Part shown: piece by piece, positions 1 to 30,205 of the stretch
Numbering within the stretch: position 1 is the first letter of the stretch
Layout: each line of letters begins with the position of its first letter
IMG/VR virus record: IMGVR_UViG_3300042564_006302
Coordinates: 1 to 37,442 of that record
From: a virus
Direction: 5' to 3' (one strand)
DNA: 37,442 nt
The notes under the pieces: model-generated
What the model was told of the DNA's origin: nothing
Database searches by the model: none
What the model saw: the letters and a program-made list of their open reading frames with translations, nothing else
Position numbers and translations under genes: made by a program

Positions 1-970
1 TTGTAAGAGAAGAGCAACCACTAAACATACTATTCATATCAGTAACAGCCCCTGTATTGAATAACGGTACAGTTGTAAGAGAAGTACAACTATTAAACAT
101 ACTATTCATACTAGTAACAGCTGCTGTATTAAACAGTGGTACAGTTGTAAGAGAAGTACAACTATTAAACATAGTACTCGTGAATTGCACAGCCCCTGTA
201 TTGAATAGTGGTACACTTGTAAGAGAAGTACAACTAAAAAACATACTACCCATATTAGTAACAGCTGCTGTATTGAATAGTGGTACAGTTGTAAGAGAAG
301 TACAACTACTAAACATACTAACCATATTAGTAACAGCTGCTGTATTGAATAGTGGTACAGTTGTAAGAGAAGTACAACTACTAAACATACTAACCATATT
401 AGTAACAGCTATTGTATTAAAAAGCGGTACACTTGTAAGAGAAGTACAACTAAAAAACATACTACCCATACTAGTAACAGCTGCTGTATTGAATAGTGGT
501 ACACTTGTAAGTGATCTACAGCTAAAAAACATTCCTTCTGGTGGAATATTACCTCCCATAGTAGTAACATTTTGCGTGTTAAATAATGGTACAGTCTGAA
601 GACGGGAACAAGAGGCAAACATACTATTCATATTAGTAACAGCCCCTGTATTGAATAGTGGAACACTTGTAAGAGAAGAGCAACCACTAAACATAGAACT
701 CATATTAGTAACAGCTGCTGTATTAAACAGTGGTACGCTTGTAAGAGAAGTACAACTACTAAACATACTATTCATACTAGTAACAGCTGCTGTATTAAAC
801 AGTGGTACAGTTGTAAGAGAAGTACAACTACTAAACATACCACTCATAGTAGTAACAGCCCCTGTATTGAATAATGGTACAGTATTAAGAGACCTGCAAT
901 TATTAAACATACTAGTCATATTAGTAACACTTCCTGTATCAGACAATGATACACTTATAAGACTAGAACA
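1..970 (-). repeat. Tandem 69-bp repeats (about 14 copies) encoding DUF285-type LRR units
   Basis: The block with core gtaagagaagtacaac recurs every 69 bases from the left edge to about position 970. It is the reverse complement of codons for the SCTSLT part of each 23-residue repeat. Copies are nearly identical in the middle of the array and degrade toward 970. One unit near 520-560 is longer and adds residues reading GNIPPEGMFF. High identity suggests recent expansion or ongoing recombination. Confidence 0.9.
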
Positions 971-1663
971 ACCACTAAATGCACTTGTCATATTAGTAAC
1001 GTTAGTAGTACCGCTGAGGGATATATTTTTTAATGAAACTAAATTTGCAAATGAATTAGTTAAGTCAGTTAATAATCCCATATTAACTCCAGTAAAACTA
1101 ACTAAATTTTTACAAAAAGCCAAAGAAGCGGTTGCATTACCAAGAGTTAAACCTGTTAAACTTGGGCAAGATAAAACTATTTCTAATATAGGAGATGAAT
1201 CGGGAAATGTAGATCCCGTTAATGCATATTTTTGGTTAAAGTCTACACTTGTTATATTTTGACCAGCTTGAGGAGTAATGACTACAACTGCCATTTTATA
1301 ACCATCACTTGTAACGGTGGCATTTAAATCTGGGTCGGTATAAGAGTATTCATGTTGAGCTTTAACACCAGATGCAACATTTTCTGTTACACCATCACCC
1401 CAATCAACTGTATATGCTCCAGATATTGTAAAAGCGAGAAAGTTAGATTGTTGCGGAAACACTGGCATCAACAAAGCTATTTTTTGCTCTGAAGATATTA
1501 TAGTCGGCATTGTTAGCCAATCAGCTGGACGTGTCCAAGTGCTTGATGTTGAGCTAGTAGGTGATGGTTGTTTAATACGCAGTCGATCAAATCTATCCTT
1601 TTTAAAAAAAGAAGACTTACGTGAGACTAACGGTCCAACTTTATTTCCGTAACGAATACTCAT
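1..1663 (-). CDS. BspA-like leucine-rich repeat tail/adhesion protein (3' end beyond window)
   Basis: The minus-strand frame is open from an ATG at 1663 to the window edge (554 codons, no stop), so the protein is truncated here. Residues from about 70 contain a DWGDG motif, as in PKD-like domains that precede repeats in BspA-type surface proteins. From about residue 230 on there are 23-residue repeats of the form VPLFNTxAVTNMxSMFxxCxSLT, the DUF285/BspA leucine-rich repeat. The gene starts one base after the stop of the preceding structural gene, in a tail-fibre operon. By position and architecture I infer a distal tail or receptor-binding protein. The plus-strand open frames over the repeats are shadows. 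Confidence 0.85.
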   Translation of the reverse strand, partial: MSIRYGNKVGPLVSRKSSFFKKDRFDRLRIKQPSPTSSTSSTWTRPADWLTMPTIISSEQKIALLMPVFPQQSNFLAFTISGAYTVDWGDGVTENVASGVKAQHEYSYTDPDLNATVTSDGYKMAVVVITPQAGQNITSVDFNQKYALTGSTFPDSSPILEIVLSCPSLTGLTLGNATASLAFCKNLVSFTGVNMGLLTDLTNSFANLVSLKNISLSGTTNVTNMTSAFSGCSSLISVSLSDTGSVTNMTSMFNNCRSLNTVPLFNTGAVTTMSGMFSSCTSLTTVPLFNTAAVTSMNSMFSSCTSLTSVPLFNTAAVTNMSSMFSGCSSLTSVPLFNTGAVTNMNSMFASCSRLQTVPLFNTQNVTTMGGNIPPEGMFFSCRSLTSVPLFNTAAVTSMGSMFFSCTSLTSVPLFNTIAVTNMVSMFSSCTSLTTVPLFNTAAVTNMVSMFSSCTSLTTVPLFNTAAVTNMGSMFFSCTSLTSVPLFNTGAVQFTSTMFNSCTSLTTVPLFNTAAVTSMNSMFNSCTSLTTVPLFNTGAVTDMNSMFSGCSSLT

Positions 1664-25300: not shown

Positions 25301-25378
25301 CGCGGGTCAACCAGTAGTAGTGCTGGATCTGTCTCATAAGCAGAAGTAGTTTCGGTGCAATTCCGAAACCCGCAACCA
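25301..25378 (+). tRNA. tRNA-fMet (CAT), initiator type
   Basis: The acceptor strands CGCGGGT and ACCCGCA pair except for a C1:A72 mismatch, the hallmark of bacterial initiator tRNA, and the 3' end is ACCA. The anticodon loop is CTCATAA with a 5-bp stem (TCTGT/GCAGA). The three consecutive G:C pairs normal for initiators are missing, the D-loop lacks GG and the T-loop is TGCAATT, so it is divergent. The C1:A72 mismatch favours initiator over elongator. Confidence 0.75.
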
Positions 25379-25386
25379 ATTTTTAT

Positions 25387-25472
25387 GGGTAGATACCCAA
25401 GTGGCTAAAGGGGGCAGACTGTAAATCTGCTGATGTATGTCTACGTTGGTTCGAATCCAACTCTGCCCACCA
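25387..25472 (+). tRNA. tRNA-Tyr (GTA)
   Basis: GGGTAGA pairs with TCTGCCC, anticodon arm GCAGA-CTGTAAA-TCTGC, long variable arm, T-loop TTCGAAT, encoded ACCA. Canonical class II tRNA. Confidence 0.92.
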
Positions 25473-25478
25473 TATTAT

Positions 25479-25578
25479 CAATGTATAGTGTAGTGGCAGC
25501 ACACCCCAAGCAAAGGGCTTCTTATCCGATAGGATAGGCGGTAATGCCGTGGCGATGGTTCGATTCCATCTACATTGT
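25479..25578 (+). tRNA. tRNA-like gene with a long internal insertion, identity uncertain
   Basis: CAATGTA pairs perfectly with TACATTG; the D-arm (GTGT/GCAC) and T-arm (GATGG-TTCGATT-CCATC) are good; CCA is not encoded. Between them lie about 50 bases. A best anticodon arm is CCCC-AAGCAAA-GGG (GCA, Cys) with A at position 33, followed by about 34 bases holding two hairpins (CTTATCC-GATA-GGATAGG and CGG-TAATG-CCG). U73 agrees with Cys. It could contain an intron-like insert or be a decoy. Confidence 0.5.
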
Positions 25579-25587
25579 TCAATTTTC

Positions 25588-25661
25588 GCGGGATTTGTAT
25601 AATGGTAATACGCCATCCTTCCAAGTTGGAGTCATCAGTTCGATTCTGATATCCCGCACCA
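25588..25661 (+). tRNA. tRNA-Gly (TCC)
   Basis: GCGGGAT pairs with ATCCCGC, anticodon loop CTTCCAA with one T-T mismatch in its stem, T-loop TTCGATT, encoded ACCA. Confidence 0.9.
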
Positions 25662-25665
25662 TTTT

Positions 25666-25745
25666 TGCCAATCAAGAGGACAAGGGGCTTCATGCCCCGT
25701 ATGAGTAAGCCATACGGAGGCCAAAAATCTACTCTTGATTTGGCA
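25666..25745 (+). ncRNA. Three-way-junction structured RNA, unassigned
   Basis: TGCCAATCAAGAG at 25666 pairs with CTCTTGATTTGGCA at 25732 (13 bp with one bulge). Inside are the hairpins GGGGC-TTCAT-GCCCC (25684-25698) and GTATG-AGTAAGC-CATAC (25699-25715). TTTTCTTTCTT follows, so it could also terminate the first tRNA transcript. It does not fold as a tRNA. Confidence 0.5.
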
Positions 25746-25754
25746 TTTTCTTTC

Positions 25755-25782
25755 TTGACTTCTTCCGACAAAGCTGTATAAT
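25755..25782 (+). promoter_or_regulatory. Sigma70-like promoter giving a leaderless mRNA
   Basis: TTGACT at 25755-25760, 16-base spacer, TATAAT at 25777-25782. The ATG at 25789 is six bases further on, at the expected transcription start. Confidence 0.75.
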
Positions 25783-25788
25783 CATGAT

Positions 25789-26322
25789 ATGAACAATATG
25801 AACAGACGCAGTTTTCTACCTCTTTTGTCGGCCCTGCCATTTCTTGGCCATTGCAAATTCAATAATTCGTTTATAAAAATCCCTTCGGAGATCAATCTTT
25901 TCGAATTCCAAAAAGAAATTGTTAGTTTGGTCGAAAGAAATAACAAGTGTTTATTTTGGATGTCTAGGGGGTCTTCAAAAACCTTTCTTCTCAGTATTAT
26001 GACGGGTCTGCCGAAGGAAGTATTGGTTAAACTCACAATAATGGGTTCCAAAATGCCAATCAAAGCACATGGGATTCATTTTTATGATGAAATCAACGAC
26101 GAACTTATTAAAGACAAACACGATAAAATCATTGTTTTGTCCAGCCTCAAAGAAAATGAAGAATTAAACCATAAAATTAATTCTCTTGATTGGGATGTAA
26201 TAAAAATTATCCCGTATAACAAACTTGGCGTAAAGCTTTATTATGACCAATATCTTATAGAACAAGCTGCCAGCTCAATGAGCAAAAGACAATTTGAGAG
26301 AGAATTCTTGTGCAAGATTTAA
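25789..26322 (+). CDS. Terminase-like ATPase fragment with a Tat/lipoprotein-like N-terminus
   Basis: A 177-residue protein. The N-terminus MNNMNRRSFLPLLSALPFLG is followed by HC and looks like a twin-arginine or lipoprotein signal. Residues about 38-65 (LFEFQKEIVSLVERNNKCLF then MSRGSSKTFLLS) resemble the adenine motif and a degenerate Walker A (SSKT instead of SGKT) of large terminases. The ending SMSKRQFEREFLCKI resembles the terminase motif just before the nuclease domain. A second ATPase motif is not clear. It may be a truncated terminase paralogue reused for another task. Confidence 0.65.
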   Translation: MNNMNRRSFLPLLSALPFLGHCKFNNSFIKIPSEINLFEFQKEIVSLVERNNKCLFWMSRGSSKTFLLSIMTGLPKEVLVKLTIMGSKMPIKAHGIHFYDEINDELIKDKHDKIIVLSSLKENEELNHKINSLDWDVIKIIPYNKLGVKLYYDQYLIEQAASSMSKRQFEREFLCKI

Positions 26323-26331
26323 TATACAAAC

Positions 26332-26438
26332 GAGTGGCGCTTGAAAGTCAAACATTAGACGGCTCTGGACGTTCCGACGTAAACTGGATAACTCATTCTG
26401 TTTTGAAGCCTCATAATAGCGAGAATTCCCGCTCACCA
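26332..26438 (+). other. Candidate tRNA-like RNA with an ACCA end, not foldable as a normal tRNA
   Basis: GAGTGG at 26332 pairs with CCGCTC at 26429 (one G-T), directly followed by ACCA. Internal helices include TTGA-AAG-TCAA, GGCT/AGCC enclosing ACGT-TCCG-ACGT, and ATTCT/AGAAT. No standard D, anticodon and T arms could be assigned. No ORF covers it. Confidence 0.35.
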
Positions 26439-26639
26439 ATTTTTCCCTGCCATTGTGGGCGATGATCCTACAATGAGCATTAAGGCTAAAGGCGGGTTAG
26501 CAACCCGATGATGCTAAATGTAATCCGACACACATTAAAGTAGGCTTGGAGTCGCTACCAAGATGAAATAGTCACTGTGTTTCTTCAAATTGGTCAAAGC
26601 TCCGCTTGGCTAATTAATCGGTAGTGGGGAAAACACTTT
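26439..26639 (+). other. Non-coding structured region
   Basis: No credible ORF. CATTGTGGG/CCTACAATG forms a 9-bp hairpin (26451-26475); AGCAT/ATGCT (26476-26515) encloses GGGTT-AGC-AACCC; CTTGG/CCAAG (26545-26562) encloses AGTCGCTA and precedes AGTCAC. A similar hairpin plus AGTCAC recurs at 26742. Unassigned. Confidence 0.5.
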
Positions 26640-26708
26640 GCGAGAGGGATCATACGGAGATCGCTAGGCCCATAGTCTAGAGTGGAGGTTAAATTCCTTC
26701 CCCTCGCA
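26640..26708 (+). tRNA. tRNA with CAT anticodon (Met or lysidine-type Ile)
   Basis: GCGAGAG pairs with CCCTCGC with one mismatch; D-arm GATC-ATACGGA-GATC; anticodon arm CTAGG-CCCATAG-TCTAG (C33 instead of U33); T-arm GGAGG-TTAAATT-CCTTC; three-base variable loop. CCA is not encoded. It is the second of three CAT tRNAs here, so an Ile-CAT role is possible. Confidence 0.6.
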
Positions 26709-26820
26709 ATTCGTATTCATACGCGATAAAGTATGACGTTGCTAGGAGCGGTTCCCTAGATAGTCACAGCCCTTGATGAGTCGTAGGCCGAAATGCTATG
26801 GGCAAATCATTTTCTATGTT
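26709..26820 (+). other. Non-coding structured region
   Basis: No ORF. Hairpins CATAC/GTATG (26718-26735) and CTAGG/CCTAG (26742-26759, loop AGCGGTTC), then AGATAGTCACAG and GCCC/GGGC enclosing TTGATGAG...CGAAA. The second hairpin with AGTCAC repeats the pattern at 26536-26575. Confidence 0.45.
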
Positions 26821-26960
26821 TTTTCTATTGTGGTCTTTATCGCCCGAAGTATGTTGGGAAAGCAGATTGGAAATCTCCGACGAGCGTCTACTAGCAGAAA
26901 AGTGACAGAAGGATAAACGAGTGGTGTCTTTAAGACCAAAGCTTCTTCAGCAATAGAAAG
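26821..26960 (+). other. 140-nt RNA element closed by a 10-bp stem
   Basis: TTTTCTATTG at 26821 pairs with CAATAGAAAG at 26951 (one T-G). Inside are AGATT-GGA-AATCT, GAC-GAGC-GTC and GTCT-TTA-AGAC hairpins. TTGGAAA could be a Ser-GGA anticodon loop, but I find no T-arm. It shares AAACGAGTGG (26915-26924) with 26328-26337. Confidence 0.4.
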
Positions 26961-26970
26961 TATTTTTAAT

Positions 26971-27045
26971 TCCCAGTAACGCACAGGGAGTGCGGCCCGC
27001 CTGTTAAGCGGTGTGAGTTTGGATCGTTGCCAAAACTGGGAGCCA
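26971..27045 (+). tRNA. tRNA-Asn (GTT) with unusual T-loop
   Basis: TCCCAGT pairs with ACTGGGA, then GCCA. Anticodon loop CTGTTAA. D-arm GCAC-AGGGA-GTGC has a five-base loop, and the T-loop is ATCGTTG instead of TTCRANY. Confidence 0.75.
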
Positions 27046-27052
27046 TTTTTTT

Positions 27053-27123
27053 GCCCCTATAGTTTAACGGTAAAATAAATCACTTGTAATGATTAGACCT
27101 GTGTTCAATTCACAGTGGGGGCT
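27053..27123 (+). tRNA. tRNA-Thr (TGT)
   Basis: GCCCCTA pairs with TGGGGGC; anticodon arm AATCA-CTTGTAA-TGATT; T-arm CTGTG-TTCAATT-CACAG. CCA is not encoded. Confidence 0.88.
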
Positions 27124-27134
27124 TTTAATTTTAG

Positions 27135-27209
27135 CGGATATAGGCCGACTGGGAAGGCACTTACTTTGGGAGTAAGACTAGGTAAATTCGATTTTTACAT
27201 ATCCGACCA
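27135..27209 (+). tRNA. tRNA-Pro (TGG)
   Basis: CGGATAT pairs with ATATCCG (C1:G72, usual for Pro); anticodon arm CTTAC-TTTGGGA-GTAAG; T-arm GTAAA-TTCGATT-TTTAC; ACCA encoded. Confidence 0.9.
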
Positions 27210-27213
27210 TTTT

Positions 27214-27287
27214 CGCACGTTGGCAGAGAAGTCATGCAGTGGTCTGCAAAACCGCATAGTCCAGAGCGTTACTGGAACGTGCGTCCA
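27214..27287 (+). tRNA. tRNA-Cys (GCA) with non-canonical elbow
   Basis: CGCACGT pairs with ACGTGCG, then TCCA (U73 as in Cys). Anticodon arm GTGGT-CTGCAAA-ACCGC. The D-loop AGAAGTCA lacks GG and the T-loop is AGCGTTA. Confidence 0.82.
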
Positions 27288-27289
27288 AA

Positions 27290-27361
27290 GGGGAGTTAGC
27301 TCAGTGGTAGAGCGTTTCGTTTACACCGAATTTGTCGGGGGTTCGAATCCCTCACTCCCTA
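27290..27361 (+). tRNA. tRNA-Val (TAC)
   Basis: GGGGAGT pairs with ACTCCCT (G1-U72); D-arm GCTC/GAGC; anticodon loop TTTACAC; T-loop TTCGAAT. CCA is not encoded. It ends four bases before the convergent structural gene. Confidence 0.88.
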
Positions 27362-27364
27362 TTT

Positions 27365-28696
27365 TTATCTACTTATTTCTTCCCAGTCAATAGAGCCATG
27401 AACAAGCTCACCATTAGTACTAGCTGTTACCACAAGTGTAAGTTCATACGGTGTGCTAGTAAATGAGTTTCTTTCAAGTTGAAATTTAAATAAGGCTTCT
27501 TTAAGAATATCTATAGTAGTTGATGCCTGTGTATTAGACGTTAAGTAGCCTGATGCCAGTGTTCTTCCACCTGTAATGCCTGTAGCATCTAATTTATATT
27601 CTACAGAAGAATTAGCGCCAGCACTAATCCAAGTACCGCTACCACCTGTTGTTGTACCACTGGCTATCACTGACCATTCATATATTCCTGTAGCTACACC
27701 CATAACAGATATAGCTGTAAGTATAGCAATTGCATCGAGTCTGCCTGATTTGAGTCTTATAGTAGCTACAGGATATAAAACACCTGCTGTAGTAAGTCCT
27801 TTTGGTGCTGTAATTGTAGTACCGATAGCTTGTTGCAATCCTCTCAATTCATATCCGCCTTCTGAAATCACAGAAGAACAAATTTGTTTTAATATACTAT
27901 TGCCAGAAGTTGCGGCAGTATTTGATATTTCATATCTCAGCGGCAAAGAAGCTGTAGTAATATAAGTAGAAGTAATAATGTTAGCGTGATGAAAAGTATG
28001 ACAAAGAATAAATTGTCCGTTAATAACAAATCCCATTCTTACTGAACCAACTCCCAACCATTCAAAATCCATCCATAAAATTTGAGCCTTAGCGATATCT
28101 AAAGTAAAACCAGAAGCGCCAGTTCCGTCTAATTTGTCTCCATTCCACTCTGCTTGAGATACTCTTGTTTCTTTAATTGGTGTACCATCAACCAAACTAC
28201 GTTCGACAAAACTCAAAACAGAACCATCGAGTTCTAAATACATTCCATTATCAGCACCATAGTAACCTACTCTTTGTCTTAAACCAGTTTTTGCTGGTGA
28301 CATTACAAAAGTATTTAAATTTAATAATGATTTTCCTGGTTGATAAGCAAAAACTTTTGTTGTTTCTCTAGTAACGAATGAACCAGAAGCGTTTGTTACA
28401 GTCAAATCAACCAATCCTTGATTTTGATTAAAAGAACCACTACCACTAACACCACTAGCAGTAGACCAAAGACCATTGTCAGCATACCTATGACTTGAAT
28501 CAAATAAAGTTAATGGAGAAGAAATTCTCATGCGACCAAACGCATCAAAAGCAGTAGAACTAGCAGAATTGGCAAAACTTAAATCGCTTTGCTCTAAGGG
28601 TCTGTATACATCGTTTGCGCGATCATATATACAAGGAATTTGTCCTGCTGTATGCGACAATTGACCAAGGTTTTGGAAAGTATACAGATCTGCCAT
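27365..28696 (-). CDS. Virion structural protein (FDAFGRMR/TLFDS type)
   Basis: A 443-residue protein. The N-terminal part carries STAFDAFGRMRISSPLTLFD, a block I recognise from widespread uncharacterised phage structural proteins. The rest is Gly/Ser/Thr-rich, beta-type sequence (GYYGADNGMYLELDGSVLSF, QILWMDFEWLGVGSVRMGF), probably a tail or capsid-surface component. It is isolated on the minus strand between tRNA groups and has its own GTGTAA element, so it is probably a late gene. The plus-strand frames inside it are shadows. Confidence 0.75.
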   Translation of the reverse strand: MADLYTFQNLGQLSHTAGQIPCIYDRANDVYRPLEQSDLSFANSASSTAFDAFGRMRISSPLTLFDSSHRYADNGLWSTASGVSGSGSFNQNQGLVDLTVTNASGSFVTRETTKVFAYQPGKSLLNLNTFVMSPAKTGLRQRVGYYGADNGMYLELDGSVLSFVERSLVDGTPIKETRVSQAEWNGDKLDGTGASGFTLDIAKAQILWMDFEWLGVGSVRMGFVINGQFILCHTFHHANIITSTYITTASLPLRYEISNTAATSGNSILKQICSSVISEGGYELRGLQQAIGTTITAPKGLTTAGVLYPVATIRLKSGRLDAIAILTAISVMGVATGIYEWSVIASGTTTGGSGTWISAGANSSVEYKLDATGITGGRTLASGYLTSNTQASTTIDILKEALFKFQLERNSFTSTPYELTLVVTASTNGELVHGSIDWEEISR

Positions 28697-28704
28697 CCAT
28701 TTAT

Positions 28705-28710
28705 TTACAC
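28705..28710 (-). promoter_or_regulatory. GTGTAA late-promoter-like element
   Basis: Minus strand, 14 nt before the ATG at 28696, in the gap to the next tRNA promoter. Confidence 0.55.
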
Positions 28711-28740
28711 TTTTAATTCGAAAACTTTCTGAAATTTATC

Positions 28741-28768
28741 TTGACCCCAAGTGAATGTGTGTTATACT
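28741..28768 (+). promoter_or_regulatory. Sigma70-like promoter before tRNA-Leu
   Basis: TTGACC at 28741-28746, 16-base spacer, TATACT at 28763-28768; start expected near 28775, twelve bases before the tRNA. Confidence 0.7.
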
Positions 28769-28786
28769 AATTTCACAGTCGAGAAT

Positions 28787-28864
28787 GCGCGGGTAGTCCA
28801 ACTGGTAGGAGACAAGTGACTTAAAATCACTACAGTATGGGTTCGAATCCCATTCCGCGCACCA
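28787..28864 (+). tRNA. tRNA-Leu (TAA) with a short variable loop
   Basis: GCGCGGG pairs with TCCGCGC; anticodon arm AGTGA-CTTAAAA-TCACT; T-arm ATGGG-TTCGAAT-CCCAT; ACCA encoded. Only about five bases lie between anticodon and T stems, whereas Leu tRNAs normally have a long variable arm. Confidence 0.82.
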
Positions 28865-28866
28865 AT

Positions 28867-29295
28867 TCACTTCTTTTTCCTACCTCTCCAAGTAGGAGTT
28901 TGAGCGTGACAATTACAGCAAAGTAATTTTAAATTCGATAGTTCATTATTGGTTCTATTACCATCAACATGTTCAATCTCAAGAGGTATTAATTGATTTA
29001 ACCAATGTGTATTATTGCAATTTTCACAACAGTGTCCTCTCTCTTTAATTATATGAGGTTTCATTCTAACTGCTCTTGTATAATCTCCCCAATTTTTTAA
29101 TTGTTGACCTTTATTCCAACCTTGCCCAGTCCAATGATTGCAATTTAAATTTAATCTTTGTAACTTTTTTTTCATATTATCATAATTTCCTCCAGTGCAA
29201 TTTAAATTTAATTTTTTTAATAACTGACGCATGGAAGAAACTTCTTTACAATATTTAATAATATCTTCATCTGTATAATTTTTGTATTGACGCAT
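28867..29295 (-). CDS. HNH homing-type endonuclease
   Basis: A 142-residue protein. The C-terminal 50 residues have CCENC, then LEIEHVDGNRTNNELSNLKL with LCCNCHAQT, a compact zinc-HNH domain typical of free-standing phage homing endonucleases. The basic N-terminal 80 residues (SMRQLLKKLNLNC and KKLQRLNLNC repeated) probably bind DNA. It lies between tRNAs on the opposite strand, a common place for homing genes, and has a GTGTAA element 14 nt before its ATG. Confidence 0.85.
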   Translation of the reverse strand: MRQYKNYTDEDIIKYCKEVSSMRQLLKKLNLNCTGGNYDNMKKKLQRLNLNCNHWTGQGWNKGQQLKNWGDYTRAVRMKPHIIKERGHCCENCNNTHWLNQLIPLEIEHVDGNRTNNELSNLKLLCCNCHAQTPTWRGRKKK

Positions 29296-29303
29296 ATGAT
29301 TAT

Positions 29304-29309
29304 TTACAC
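29304..29309 (-). promoter_or_regulatory. GTGTAA late-promoter-like element
   Basis: Minus strand, 14 nt before the HNH start at 29295. Confidence 0.55.
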
Positions 29310-29356
29310 TATATTAGGCAAACAAAGCGGTAAATTCTAATACGTTTTCAAAAATT

Positions 29357-29431
29357 CCCCTTGAAGCTCAGAAGTCGAGCGGCGGTCTCATAAACCGTAG
29401 GAAGCAGGAGCGTTACCTGTCGGGGGGACCA
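29357..29431 (+). tRNA. tRNA-Met (CAT), elongator type, non-canonical elbow
   Basis: CCCCTTG pairs with CGGGGGG (two T-G pairs), then ACCA. D-arm GCTC-AGAAGTC-GAGC, anticodon arm GCGGT-CTCATAA-ACCGT, T-arm GCAGG-AGCGTTA-CCTGT. D- and T-loops match those of tRNA-Cys and deviate from consensus. Confidence 0.8.
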
Positions 29432-29444
29432 CTTTCAAAATAAA

Positions 29445-29517
29445 TCTCCGTTAACTCAATCGGTAGAGTACTCTCTTTATAAGGGAGAAGTTACTGGTTC
29501 AAGCCCAGTACGGAGAA
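29445..29517 (+). tRNA. tRNA-Ile (TAT)
   Basis: TCTCCGT pairs with ACGGAGA; anticodon arm CTCTC-TTTATAA-GGGAG; T-arm ACTGG-TTCAAGC-CCAGT. CCA is not encoded. Reads AUA, a frequent codon in AT-rich phage genes. Confidence 0.88.
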
Positions 29518-29533
29518 TTCTTTTTCCAATGAC

Positions 29534-29698
29534 ATGAAAATAACAATCGAAATCAACGGACAAACATTTGAAGCAGAGGGTGATTATATCCCTACTGTTT
29601 TGGATAAAGTTTTGCATGAGGCGGGAGTCCTTGAAGAAGAAGAGAATGTTTTTTTTCTAGACAAAGGTCAGCAAAAGAATTATTATAGGTATTGTTAA
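29534..29698 (+). CDS. 54-residue acidic hypothetical protein
   Basis: The frame MKITIEINGQTFEAEGDYIP continues to FLDKGQQKNYYRYC. It has a beta-hairpin-like start and an acidic helix (VLDKVLHEAGVLEEEE). It lies between two tRNAs with no Shine-Dalgarno and ends two bases before tRNA-Ser. Codon use looks like the neighbours. Function unknown. Confidence 0.6.
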   Translation: MKITIEINGQTFEAEGDYIPTVLDKVLHEAGVLEEEENVFFLDKGQQKNYYRYC

Positions 29699-29700
29699 AT

Positions 29701-29791
29701 GGGTAGATGGCTGAGTTGGTCTAAGGCGCTCGACTTGAAATCGAGAGAGGTTTAATCGCCTCCGTGGGTTCGAATCCTACTCTACCCGCCA
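29701..29791 (+). tRNA. tRNA-Ser (TGA)
   Basis: GGGTAGA pairs with TCTACCC; anticodon arm CTCGA-CTTGAAA-TCGAG; long variable arm; T-loop TTCGAAT; GCCA encoded. Confidence 0.92.
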
Positions 29792-29798
29792 ATTTTTA

Positions 29799-29804
29799 GT
29801 GTAA
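29799..29804 (+). promoter_or_regulatory. GTGTAA element with longer spacing
   Basis: GTGTAA followed by a TATAAA-like stretch; the ATG at 29826 is 27 nt from its first base, unlike the 14-15 nt seen at the other nine sites. Confidence 0.35.
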
Positions 29805-29825
29805 TAATATAAAATAGACAAAACG

Positions 29826-30041
29826 ATGCCTTTACCAAAACCAAAGAACAAAGAAAAGAGAAGCGACTTTATTGGTCGTTGTGTATCTGAAGTAGCAAAA
29901 GATCCAAAGTTTAAAGATAATAAACAGCGTGTCGCAATTTGCTATACCCAGTTTAAAGAAGCAAAAGCTTCTGCGGATGGTGTTGTTTCTTTGGCGAATG
30001 ATGACGAGATGCTTTTATTTTCAGATAAGCTTAGTGAATAA
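29826..30041 (+). CDS. Small conserved phage protein (PKPKxxE...NKQRVAICY type)
   Basis: 71 residues. PLPKPKNKEKRSDFIGRCVS then DNKQRVAICYTQF is a motif combination I recognise from many phage proteins, often at the N-terminus of capsid- or prohead-associated proteins. Here it stands alone with an acidic tail. Function unknown. It ends four bases before the tmRNA-like RNA. Confidence 0.7.
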   Translation: MPLPKPKNKEKRSDFIGRCVSEVAKDPKFKDNKQRVAICYTQFKEAKASADGVVSLANDDEMLLFSDKLSE

Positions 30042-30045
30042 ATAA

Positions 30046-30113
30046 GGGTGCGATTATTGGTTTCGACATGACGCTTGTCGTGGAATGAGGTTCGATCCCT
30101 CACGCATCCACCA
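30046..30113 (+). ncRNA. tmRNA-like RNA lacking the mRNA-like domain
   Basis: A 68-nt RNA. GGGTGCG pairs with CGCATCC and ACCA follows; the third pair is G3-U70, the alanine identity shared by tRNA-Ala and tmRNA. Right after the 5' acceptor strand comes ATTATTGGTTTCGACA, close to the tmRNA 5' signature (GATTCTGGATTCGAC in E. coli, GGTTTCGACAG in cyanobacteria). The T-arm is TGAGG-TTCGATC-CCTCA. Instead of pseudoknots and tag reading frame there is one hairpin, CGACA-TGACGCT-TGTCG. An odd tRNA with anticodon ACG, G33 and no D-stem is the alternative. Confidence 0.6.
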
Positions 30114-30115
30114 TT

Positions 30116-30205
30116 GGTGAGATGGCTGAGTGGTTTAAAGCACTCCCTTGCTAAGGGAACGTAGCAGAAATGTTACCAAGGGTTCAAATCCCTTTCTCAC
30201 CGCCA
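30116..30205 (+). tRNA. tRNA-Ser (GCT)
   Basis: GGTGAGA pairs with TCTCACC; anticodon arm TCCC-TTGCTAA-GGGA; long variable arm; T-loop TTCAAAT; GCCA encoded. Confidence 0.92.

Follow-up and report, generated by a model that had tools for sequence, protein, structure and literature searches.

The tRNA array and its first gene

The DNA analysed here (the window) is an entire virus record, IMG/VR IMGVR_UViG_3300042564_006302, of 37,442 nucleotides (37.4 kb), and is probably a fragment. Its genes include RIIA, RIIB, a thymidylate synthase and structural genes, one of which is similar at the DNA level to cyanophages. ARAGORN reports 11 tRNAs across 25301-30205, and the first of them is a tRNA-Met(CAT) with boundaries exactly at 25301 and 25378. 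Besides this initiator-type gene, three tRNAs of the window have an altered elbow (Asn, Cys and a second CAU tRNA; Table 1). The Cys tRNA escaped both ARAGORN and Rfam, and it has 14 near-identical copies in related contigs (98.6-100%). The second CAU tRNA is a candidate elongator Met or Ile2 tRNA, and a better one than the gene at 25301.

Table 1. Features of the window and their positions
Feature	Positions	Strand	Evidence and remarks
Window	1-37,442		Entire virus record
Open frames built of near-repeats	57-1262	+	LNSGTVVREVQL...; perhaps antisense to a gene rich in repeats on the opposite strand
Initiator-type tRNA-Met(CAU)	25301-25378	+	ARAGORN, cloverleaf, fold, homolog alignment; C1:A72, encoded CCA, no U8
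D-loop of the 25301 tRNA	25315-25322	+	Cloverleaf, alignment; UAGUAGUG, without G18G19
Anticodon arm of the 25301 tRNA	25328-25344	+	U29:A41, G30:C40, U31.G39; anticodon at 25335-25337
T-loop of the 25301 tRNA	25356-25362	+	UGCAAUU; G55 at 25357
tRNA-like gene, 100 nt	25479-25578	+	Rfam tRNA, 40 bits; loop AAGCAAA, two additional variable-region hairpins; copies 87-91% identical in L040 and L024
Non-coding segment	26427-26973	+	85-94% identity across 8 related contigs, above that of flanking DNA; possibly an undescribed structured RNA
Weak tRNA match inside this segment	26640-26708		29.4 bits, loop CCCATAG; no other Rfam family
Hammerhead-core resemblance	about 26776		Judged by eye
tRNA-Asn(GUU)	26971-27045	+	ARAGORN, structural scan; T-loop AUCGUUG: A54:U58, U55 kept, GG D-loop
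tRNA-Cys(GCA), U73	27214-27287	+	Structural scan; D-loop AGAAGUC, T-loop AGCGUUA: A18:G55, A54:U58
Second CAU tRNA, C1:G72	29357-29431	+	D-loop AGAAGUC, T-loop AGCGUUA (A18, G55, A54, U58)
Mini-tmRNA, 68 nt	30046-30113	+	tmRNA tRNA-like domain without mRNA-like domain; Rfam tmRNA, E 9e-17

The array also holds a mini-tmRNA, which has G3:U70 and UUCGAC and in which the message is replaced by a hairpin with a 4-nt loop. It is found as well in L085-L125, L039 and L069, and its pattern matches 43 IMG/VR loci, 41 of them with 7/7 acceptor and 5/5 T-stem pairs; the relatives L068 and L022 have a full tmRNA. According to the accessible text of two papers (PMC4131195, PMC11915505), phage DS6A has a tmRNA that lacks the CDS, and tmRNA is inhibited by a molecule of similar kind, which may act by titrating SmpB. 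CDS-less tmRNAs look widespread in phages.

The acceptor stem of the tRNA at 25301 (CGCGGGU/ACCCGCA) begins with C1:A72, continues with G2:C71, C3:G70 and G4:C69, and is accompanied by A73 and an encoded ACCA. The linker consists of three bases, CAA, with C8 instead of U8. The D stem (CCAG/CUGG) is without the A11:U24 pair, which is present in the alleles L024 and L027b, and A18G19 were placed at 25319-25320 by comparison with the D-loop of homologs. The anticodon stem UCUGU/GCAGA carries the loop CUCAUAA; the variable loop is AGUAGU and the T stem UUCGG/CCGAA. At the elbow, A18 and G55 replace G18 and U55, and G19, C56, U54 and A58 are retained. The sequence-only reading had described the C1:A72 mismatch and the CTCATAA loop, both of which we find by ARAGORN and in the cloverleaf. 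It had also described an anticodon stem without the three G:C pairs of initiators. The consecutive triple is indeed missing, but the middle pair, G30:C40, is kept. The elbow had not been remarked: the lack of U8, the D-loop without G18G19, the T-loop UGCAAUU, and the like changes in other tRNAs of the array.

This tRNA is real and not a chance cloverleaf. Its minimum free energy is -26.9, whereas shuffles average -16.1 (z -3.7), and none of 200 shuffles equals it. It scores 35.2 in our structural scan (cut-off 24), where each of five Markov-simulated regions had at most one match above 24, the best at 26.3. The real region gave 15 matches above 24, and the one at 28336 (25.1) is noise. The Rfam tRNA model does not report the gene at E values up to 5.

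Initiator identity and relatives

G2:C71, C3:G70 and G4:C69 are determinants for the formylase, A11:U24 in the D stem is a feature of bacterial initiators, and a CTCATAA loop is found in tRNA-Ile2 as well. Compared with bacterial tRNA-fMet, the phage tRNA has the same C1:A72, formylase determinants, A73, CTCATAA loop and G30:C40. It differs in having U29:A41 and U31.G39 instead of G:C, in C8, in the three-base linker, and in A18 and G55.

We divided the unique CTCATAA tRNAs from the collected loci by their 1:72 pair, counting U:A as weak if GCG follows. Among the 34 initiator-like tRNAs, C3:G70 occurs in all, and G2:C71 and G30:C40 in 33 each, whereas the remaining 57 have C3:G70 in 14 cases and G30:C40 in 26. 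G31:C39 is present in only 11 of the 34 and G29:C41 in 6; a missing G:C triple with the middle pair kept is thus usual for phage-type initiators. Position 39 is other than C in 23 of them, and is G in the gene at 25301. Normal U55 is found in 18.

Four loci (L127, L128, L130 and L131) carry a gene identical to that of the window; three further loci that matched the initiator search are chance matches. The window shares C1:A72 with all nine aligned homologs. Between the alleles of the nine-sequence alignment, both strands of the acceptor, D, anticodon and T stems vary, with compensation, while C1, the anticodon loop, G30:C40 and U31.G39 are invariant. The alleles L043, L084, L068, L039 and L027a have the D-loop UAGUGGUG and the T-loop UUCGACU in place of the two loops of the window (Table 1), and the change of G18 to A accompanies that of U55 to G. 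Since U55 is common among the initiators and close relatives hold a canonical-elbow allele, phage initiation does not depend on the elbow switch. We do not propose a clean cassette swap at the initiator gene between the window and L039, a close relative, as an alignment shows that the DNA just upstream differs too. A blastn search with the initiator, the Cys gene and the mini-tmRNA gave no match in 50,697 phage records, BLAST being a blunt tool for single diverged tRNAs.

Taken with the acceptor stem, the counts among CTCATAA tRNAs indicate that the tRNA at 25301 is very probably of initiator identity (tRNA-fMet type), as the sequence-only reading had proposed. We infer that in infected cells the tRNA would receive Met, undergo formylation and serve in initiation.

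Covariation at the elbow across phage-type arrays

The bases G18, G19, U54, U55, C56 and A58 are regarded as near-universal in tRNAs, and are built into tRNA finders, modification models and the design of orthogonal tRNAs. A pattern containing both altered loops matched 73 IMG/VR loci, 28 of which have at least 14 of 21 stem positions paired; the other 45, with at most 11, have no cloverleaf and were dropped. With the T-loop AGCGTTA fixed and the D-loop free, the pattern matched at least 120 IMG/VR loci and 67 loci in GTDB contigs. Among the matches listed, at least 221 cloverleaves have the AGCGUUA T-loop (138 of them viral, the other 83 from genome contigs), and they carry many anticodons.

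Next to these pattern searches we used an elbow-blind scan, which requires C56, G53:C61, U33, CCA and good stems and leaves positions 18, 54, 55 and 58 free. Applied to the window and the collected loci, it found 1,576 unique tRNAs. Most of these loci had been chosen by rewired motifs, mini-tmRNAs or the initiator, and a further sample was chosen by a canonical T-arm: among the matches listed, 118 new loci, 96 of them with tRNAs in the scan, and 430 unique tRNAs. In this sample 386 of the 430 tRNAs are fully canonical, all 14 tRNAs with G55/C56 have an AG D-loop, and 16 of the 96 tRNA-bearing loci hold at least one rewired tRNA.

With this sample added there were 1,994 tRNAs, which fall into 1,273 clusters when grouped at 75% identity with the elbow left out. 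Clusters with U55 have a GG D-loop in 962 cases, AG in 6 and neither in 1. Clusters with G55 have AG in 252, GG in 38 and neither in 2, and C55 or A55 accounts for 12 clusters. The association of U or G at 55 with GG or AG has a Fisher p of 1e-213. The 38 clusters of G55 with GG were assigned by a simple rule, and in most of them AG lies beside GG. Positions 54:58 are U:A in 1,020 clusters, A:U in 153, G:G in 40, C:A in 30, A:A in 24, C:C in 3 and other in 3. In all 108 clusters that combine A54:U58 with G55, base 60 is A, whereas 872 of the 889 canonical clusters have a pyrimidine there.

A strict-geometry scan in which C56 is not required gave 1,008 tRNAs. Those with UC at 55-56 have GG in 721 cases and AG in 2, and those with GC have AG in 217, GA in 13 and GG in 4. 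Those with UU have a G18A19-type loop in 14 cases (GA 6, GAA 8) and GG in 1; the other rows are small. The UU tRNAs indicate that the outer elbow pair, 19:56, switches as well, from G:C to A:U, and this pair is Watson-Crick in nearly all strict-geometry tRNAs. The 38 clusters of G55 with GG, the 6 of U55 with AG and the 13 GC tRNAs with a GA D-loop are exceptions that count against the 18:55 rule. Nevertheless, the rewired elbow is very likely real and covarying, and the covariation points to A18:G55 and to the replacement pairs at 54:58. The tRNA at 25301, with A18, G55 and an intact cloverleaf, fits this set.

The rewired tRNAs also keep their discriminators. For 502 of 599, the base at this position is the one commonest among canonical tRNAs with that anticodon (label shuffles give a mean of 244 and a maximum of 280), while canonical tRNAs themselves have their commonest discriminator in 1,126 of 1,298. 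All 14 rewired tRNAs with an Ala anticodon have G3:U70.

Rewired tRNAs occur in known phages. Pseudomonas phage 16Q has a tRNA-Ile (AGCGUUA) and a tRNA-Pro (AGCGUAA) of this kind, and Enterococcus phage VRE9_1 a tRNA-Glu (UGCAAAU). Relatives of the 16Q Ile gene lie in 9 more records (KIL1 to KIL5, KIL3b, two RefSeq copies and UNO-G1W1), where no feature is annotated, and relatives of the VRE9_1 Glu gene lie in six; both are gene-level matches. A megablast of the 14 kb of L161 gave short matches only, in known phages, at tRNA-Tyr or in unannotated DNA, and blastn of the Lys tRNA of L134 gave nothing beyond a 20-base match inside an integrase gene.

Bacterial genomes served as controls. Of 194 genomes from the phylum of the GTDB contig L274, 7 (L274's own among them) match the AGCGTTA pattern, and a host-core origin of these tRNAs was rejected on this count. 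In 39 genomes of the phylum the UGC pattern has 13 matches, 6 of them clustered on the contig of L274, against 11 for the reversed control, and the canonical pattern matches 38 of the 39, with 2 to 56 matches each. These near-background counts indicate that in that phylum the rewired tRNAs are accessory and array-borne, and not core. Titles of Verrucomicrobiota type, counted by eye, belong to 46 of the 67 GTDB loci with AGCGTTA. We scanned 14 of the 67 with ARAGORN, and 12 contain tRNAs, mostly in dense arrays, which we took as a sign of presumably mobile or phage DNA. In the contigs with Verrucomicrobiota-type titles (among L252-L318), the rewired tRNAs lie in dense arrays, for example 17 tRNAs in 8 kb in L309, and the arrays are candidate prophages, misbinned phages or other mobile elements.

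Reasons for the rewiring and its significance

Overall, we give a probability of about 0.5 to the reading that the tRNA at 25301 is a working phage initiator and a member of a large set of rewired-elbow tRNAs in phage-type arrays. The changes would be concerted: A18:G55 for G18:U55, A19:U56 for G19:C56, and A:U, G:G, C:A or A:A for U54:A58. The phage would bring an initiator of its own whose construction leaves host elbow factors either unneeded or unable to act on it. The rewiring would have been selected because readers of U54, U55, A58 and G18 no longer act on these tRNAs or are no longer needed by them. Candidate readers would be the modification enzymes TrmA, TruB, TrmI and TrmH, or tRNases that recognise the elbow. 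TrmA, TruB, TrmH and TrmI act on U54, U55, G18 and A58, respectively, and each of the elbow switches removes such a target. That evasion of, or independence from, host elbow factors is the reason for the rewiring is a tentative proposal, which we hold more weakly than the initiator function.

The rewired elbow could instead have arisen by neutral drift in compensatory steps, which would be tolerated since phages need their tRNAs for a short time only, and the initiator would then be a spare that adds to the host pool. The coexistence of canonical and rewired alleles at related loci, and inside the same arrays, speaks for drift. However, the same few solutions recur on unrelated stems and anticodons, as with the AGCGUUA loop and the constant A60 described above, and host-type genomes hardly show them; we regard drift as rather unlikely.

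The pressure might also bear on the anticodon stem, with the initiator escaping VapC-type tRNases that cut the anticodon stem-loop of tRNA-fMet and the elbow being secondary. In several bacteria, VapC toxins cleave tRNA-fMet at the junction of the anticodon stem and loop (accessible text of PMC8522696), and evasion of tRNases by phage tRNAs through anticodon-loop changes has already been proposed (accessible text of PMC10264068). The bases found at position 39 would agree with such an escape, but it leaves the rewired elbows of tRNAs with other anticodons unexplained, and the anticodon loop at 25301 is itself unchanged, so we consider it quite doubtful.

It is very unlikely that the tRNA at 25301 is a decayed or an elongator/Ile2-type tRNA and no initiator. 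The low Rfam score, the missing U8, the odd loops, the lack of A11:U24 (kept by L024 and L027b) and the sharing of CTCATAA with tRNA-Ile2 would suit that reading. Against it stand the four identical copies elsewhere, an acceptor stem of initiator kind, unlike the 57 other CTCATAA tRNAs, and the presence at 29357 of the better elongator/Ile2 candidate. Decay into a pseudogene was rejected on the compensated stems and the kept discriminator bases.

Finally, the sequence-only reading had linked the tRNA to leaderless phage genes, which an extra initiator would favour, and this is highly improbable: among 25 starts, SD-like motifs occur at 0 (1.0 expected, p = 0.36) and TANNNT at -6/-7 occurs at 5 (2.4 expected, p = 0.086), counts that point in the proposed direction but do not differ clearly from composition-matched shuffles, so that neither leaderless genes in the window nor their link to the tRNA is supported.

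Elbow variants have reportedly been obtained in laboratory selections by the Steinberg group. Phage tRNAs and clusters of them are already known (PMC6409571, accessible text). The present set resembles the phage tRNAs proposed to evade anticodon nucleases in that the change falls at sites that host enzymes read, but that proposal concerns the anticodon loop, and the accessible text of PMC10264068 is without the terms T-loop, D-loop and elbow. Natural replacement of U54:A58 is known from eukaryotic tRNA-Ala and initiator, which have A54/A58 (accessible text of PMC7566577 and PMC7912444). There, however, the replacements are purine-purine pairs only, and A18:G55 is absent; the same text of PMC7566577 states that purine 54:58 pairs are absent from bacterial and archaeal tRNAs. 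Natural non-canonical elbows are also found in tRNA-Pyl and in mitochondrial tRNAs without G18G19 or TPsiC (PMC7609411, accessible text), but in these the arm sizes are changed or the contact is lost, whereas the phage set has a cloverleaf of normal size and a covarying replacement contact. Our literature search, with thin coverage of subscription papers, found no report of natural tRNAs with A18:G55, A54:U58 or G54:G58, and the set has apparently gone unremarked in print.

The concerted replacements that occur naturally in cultivable phages demonstrate that the elbow is open to change as one unit, and the rewired tRNAs offer ready material for asking which host factors truly need a canonical elbow. 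Because finders overlook rewired genes (the Cys gene by ARAGORN and Rfam, the initiator by Rfam), counts of phage tRNAs would be too low. It is possible, though we think it unlikely, that phage arrays form a parallel tRNA set with a switched elbow code, in which three or more contacts are replaced in concert and which hosts are unable to modify or recognise at the elbow. If so, phage translation, including initiation, would run partly on tRNAs immune to tRNases and quality control that read the elbow, and phage tRNAs would be chemically separable from those of the host. Why phages carry tRNAs at all, a question of long standing, becomes testable at a new site.
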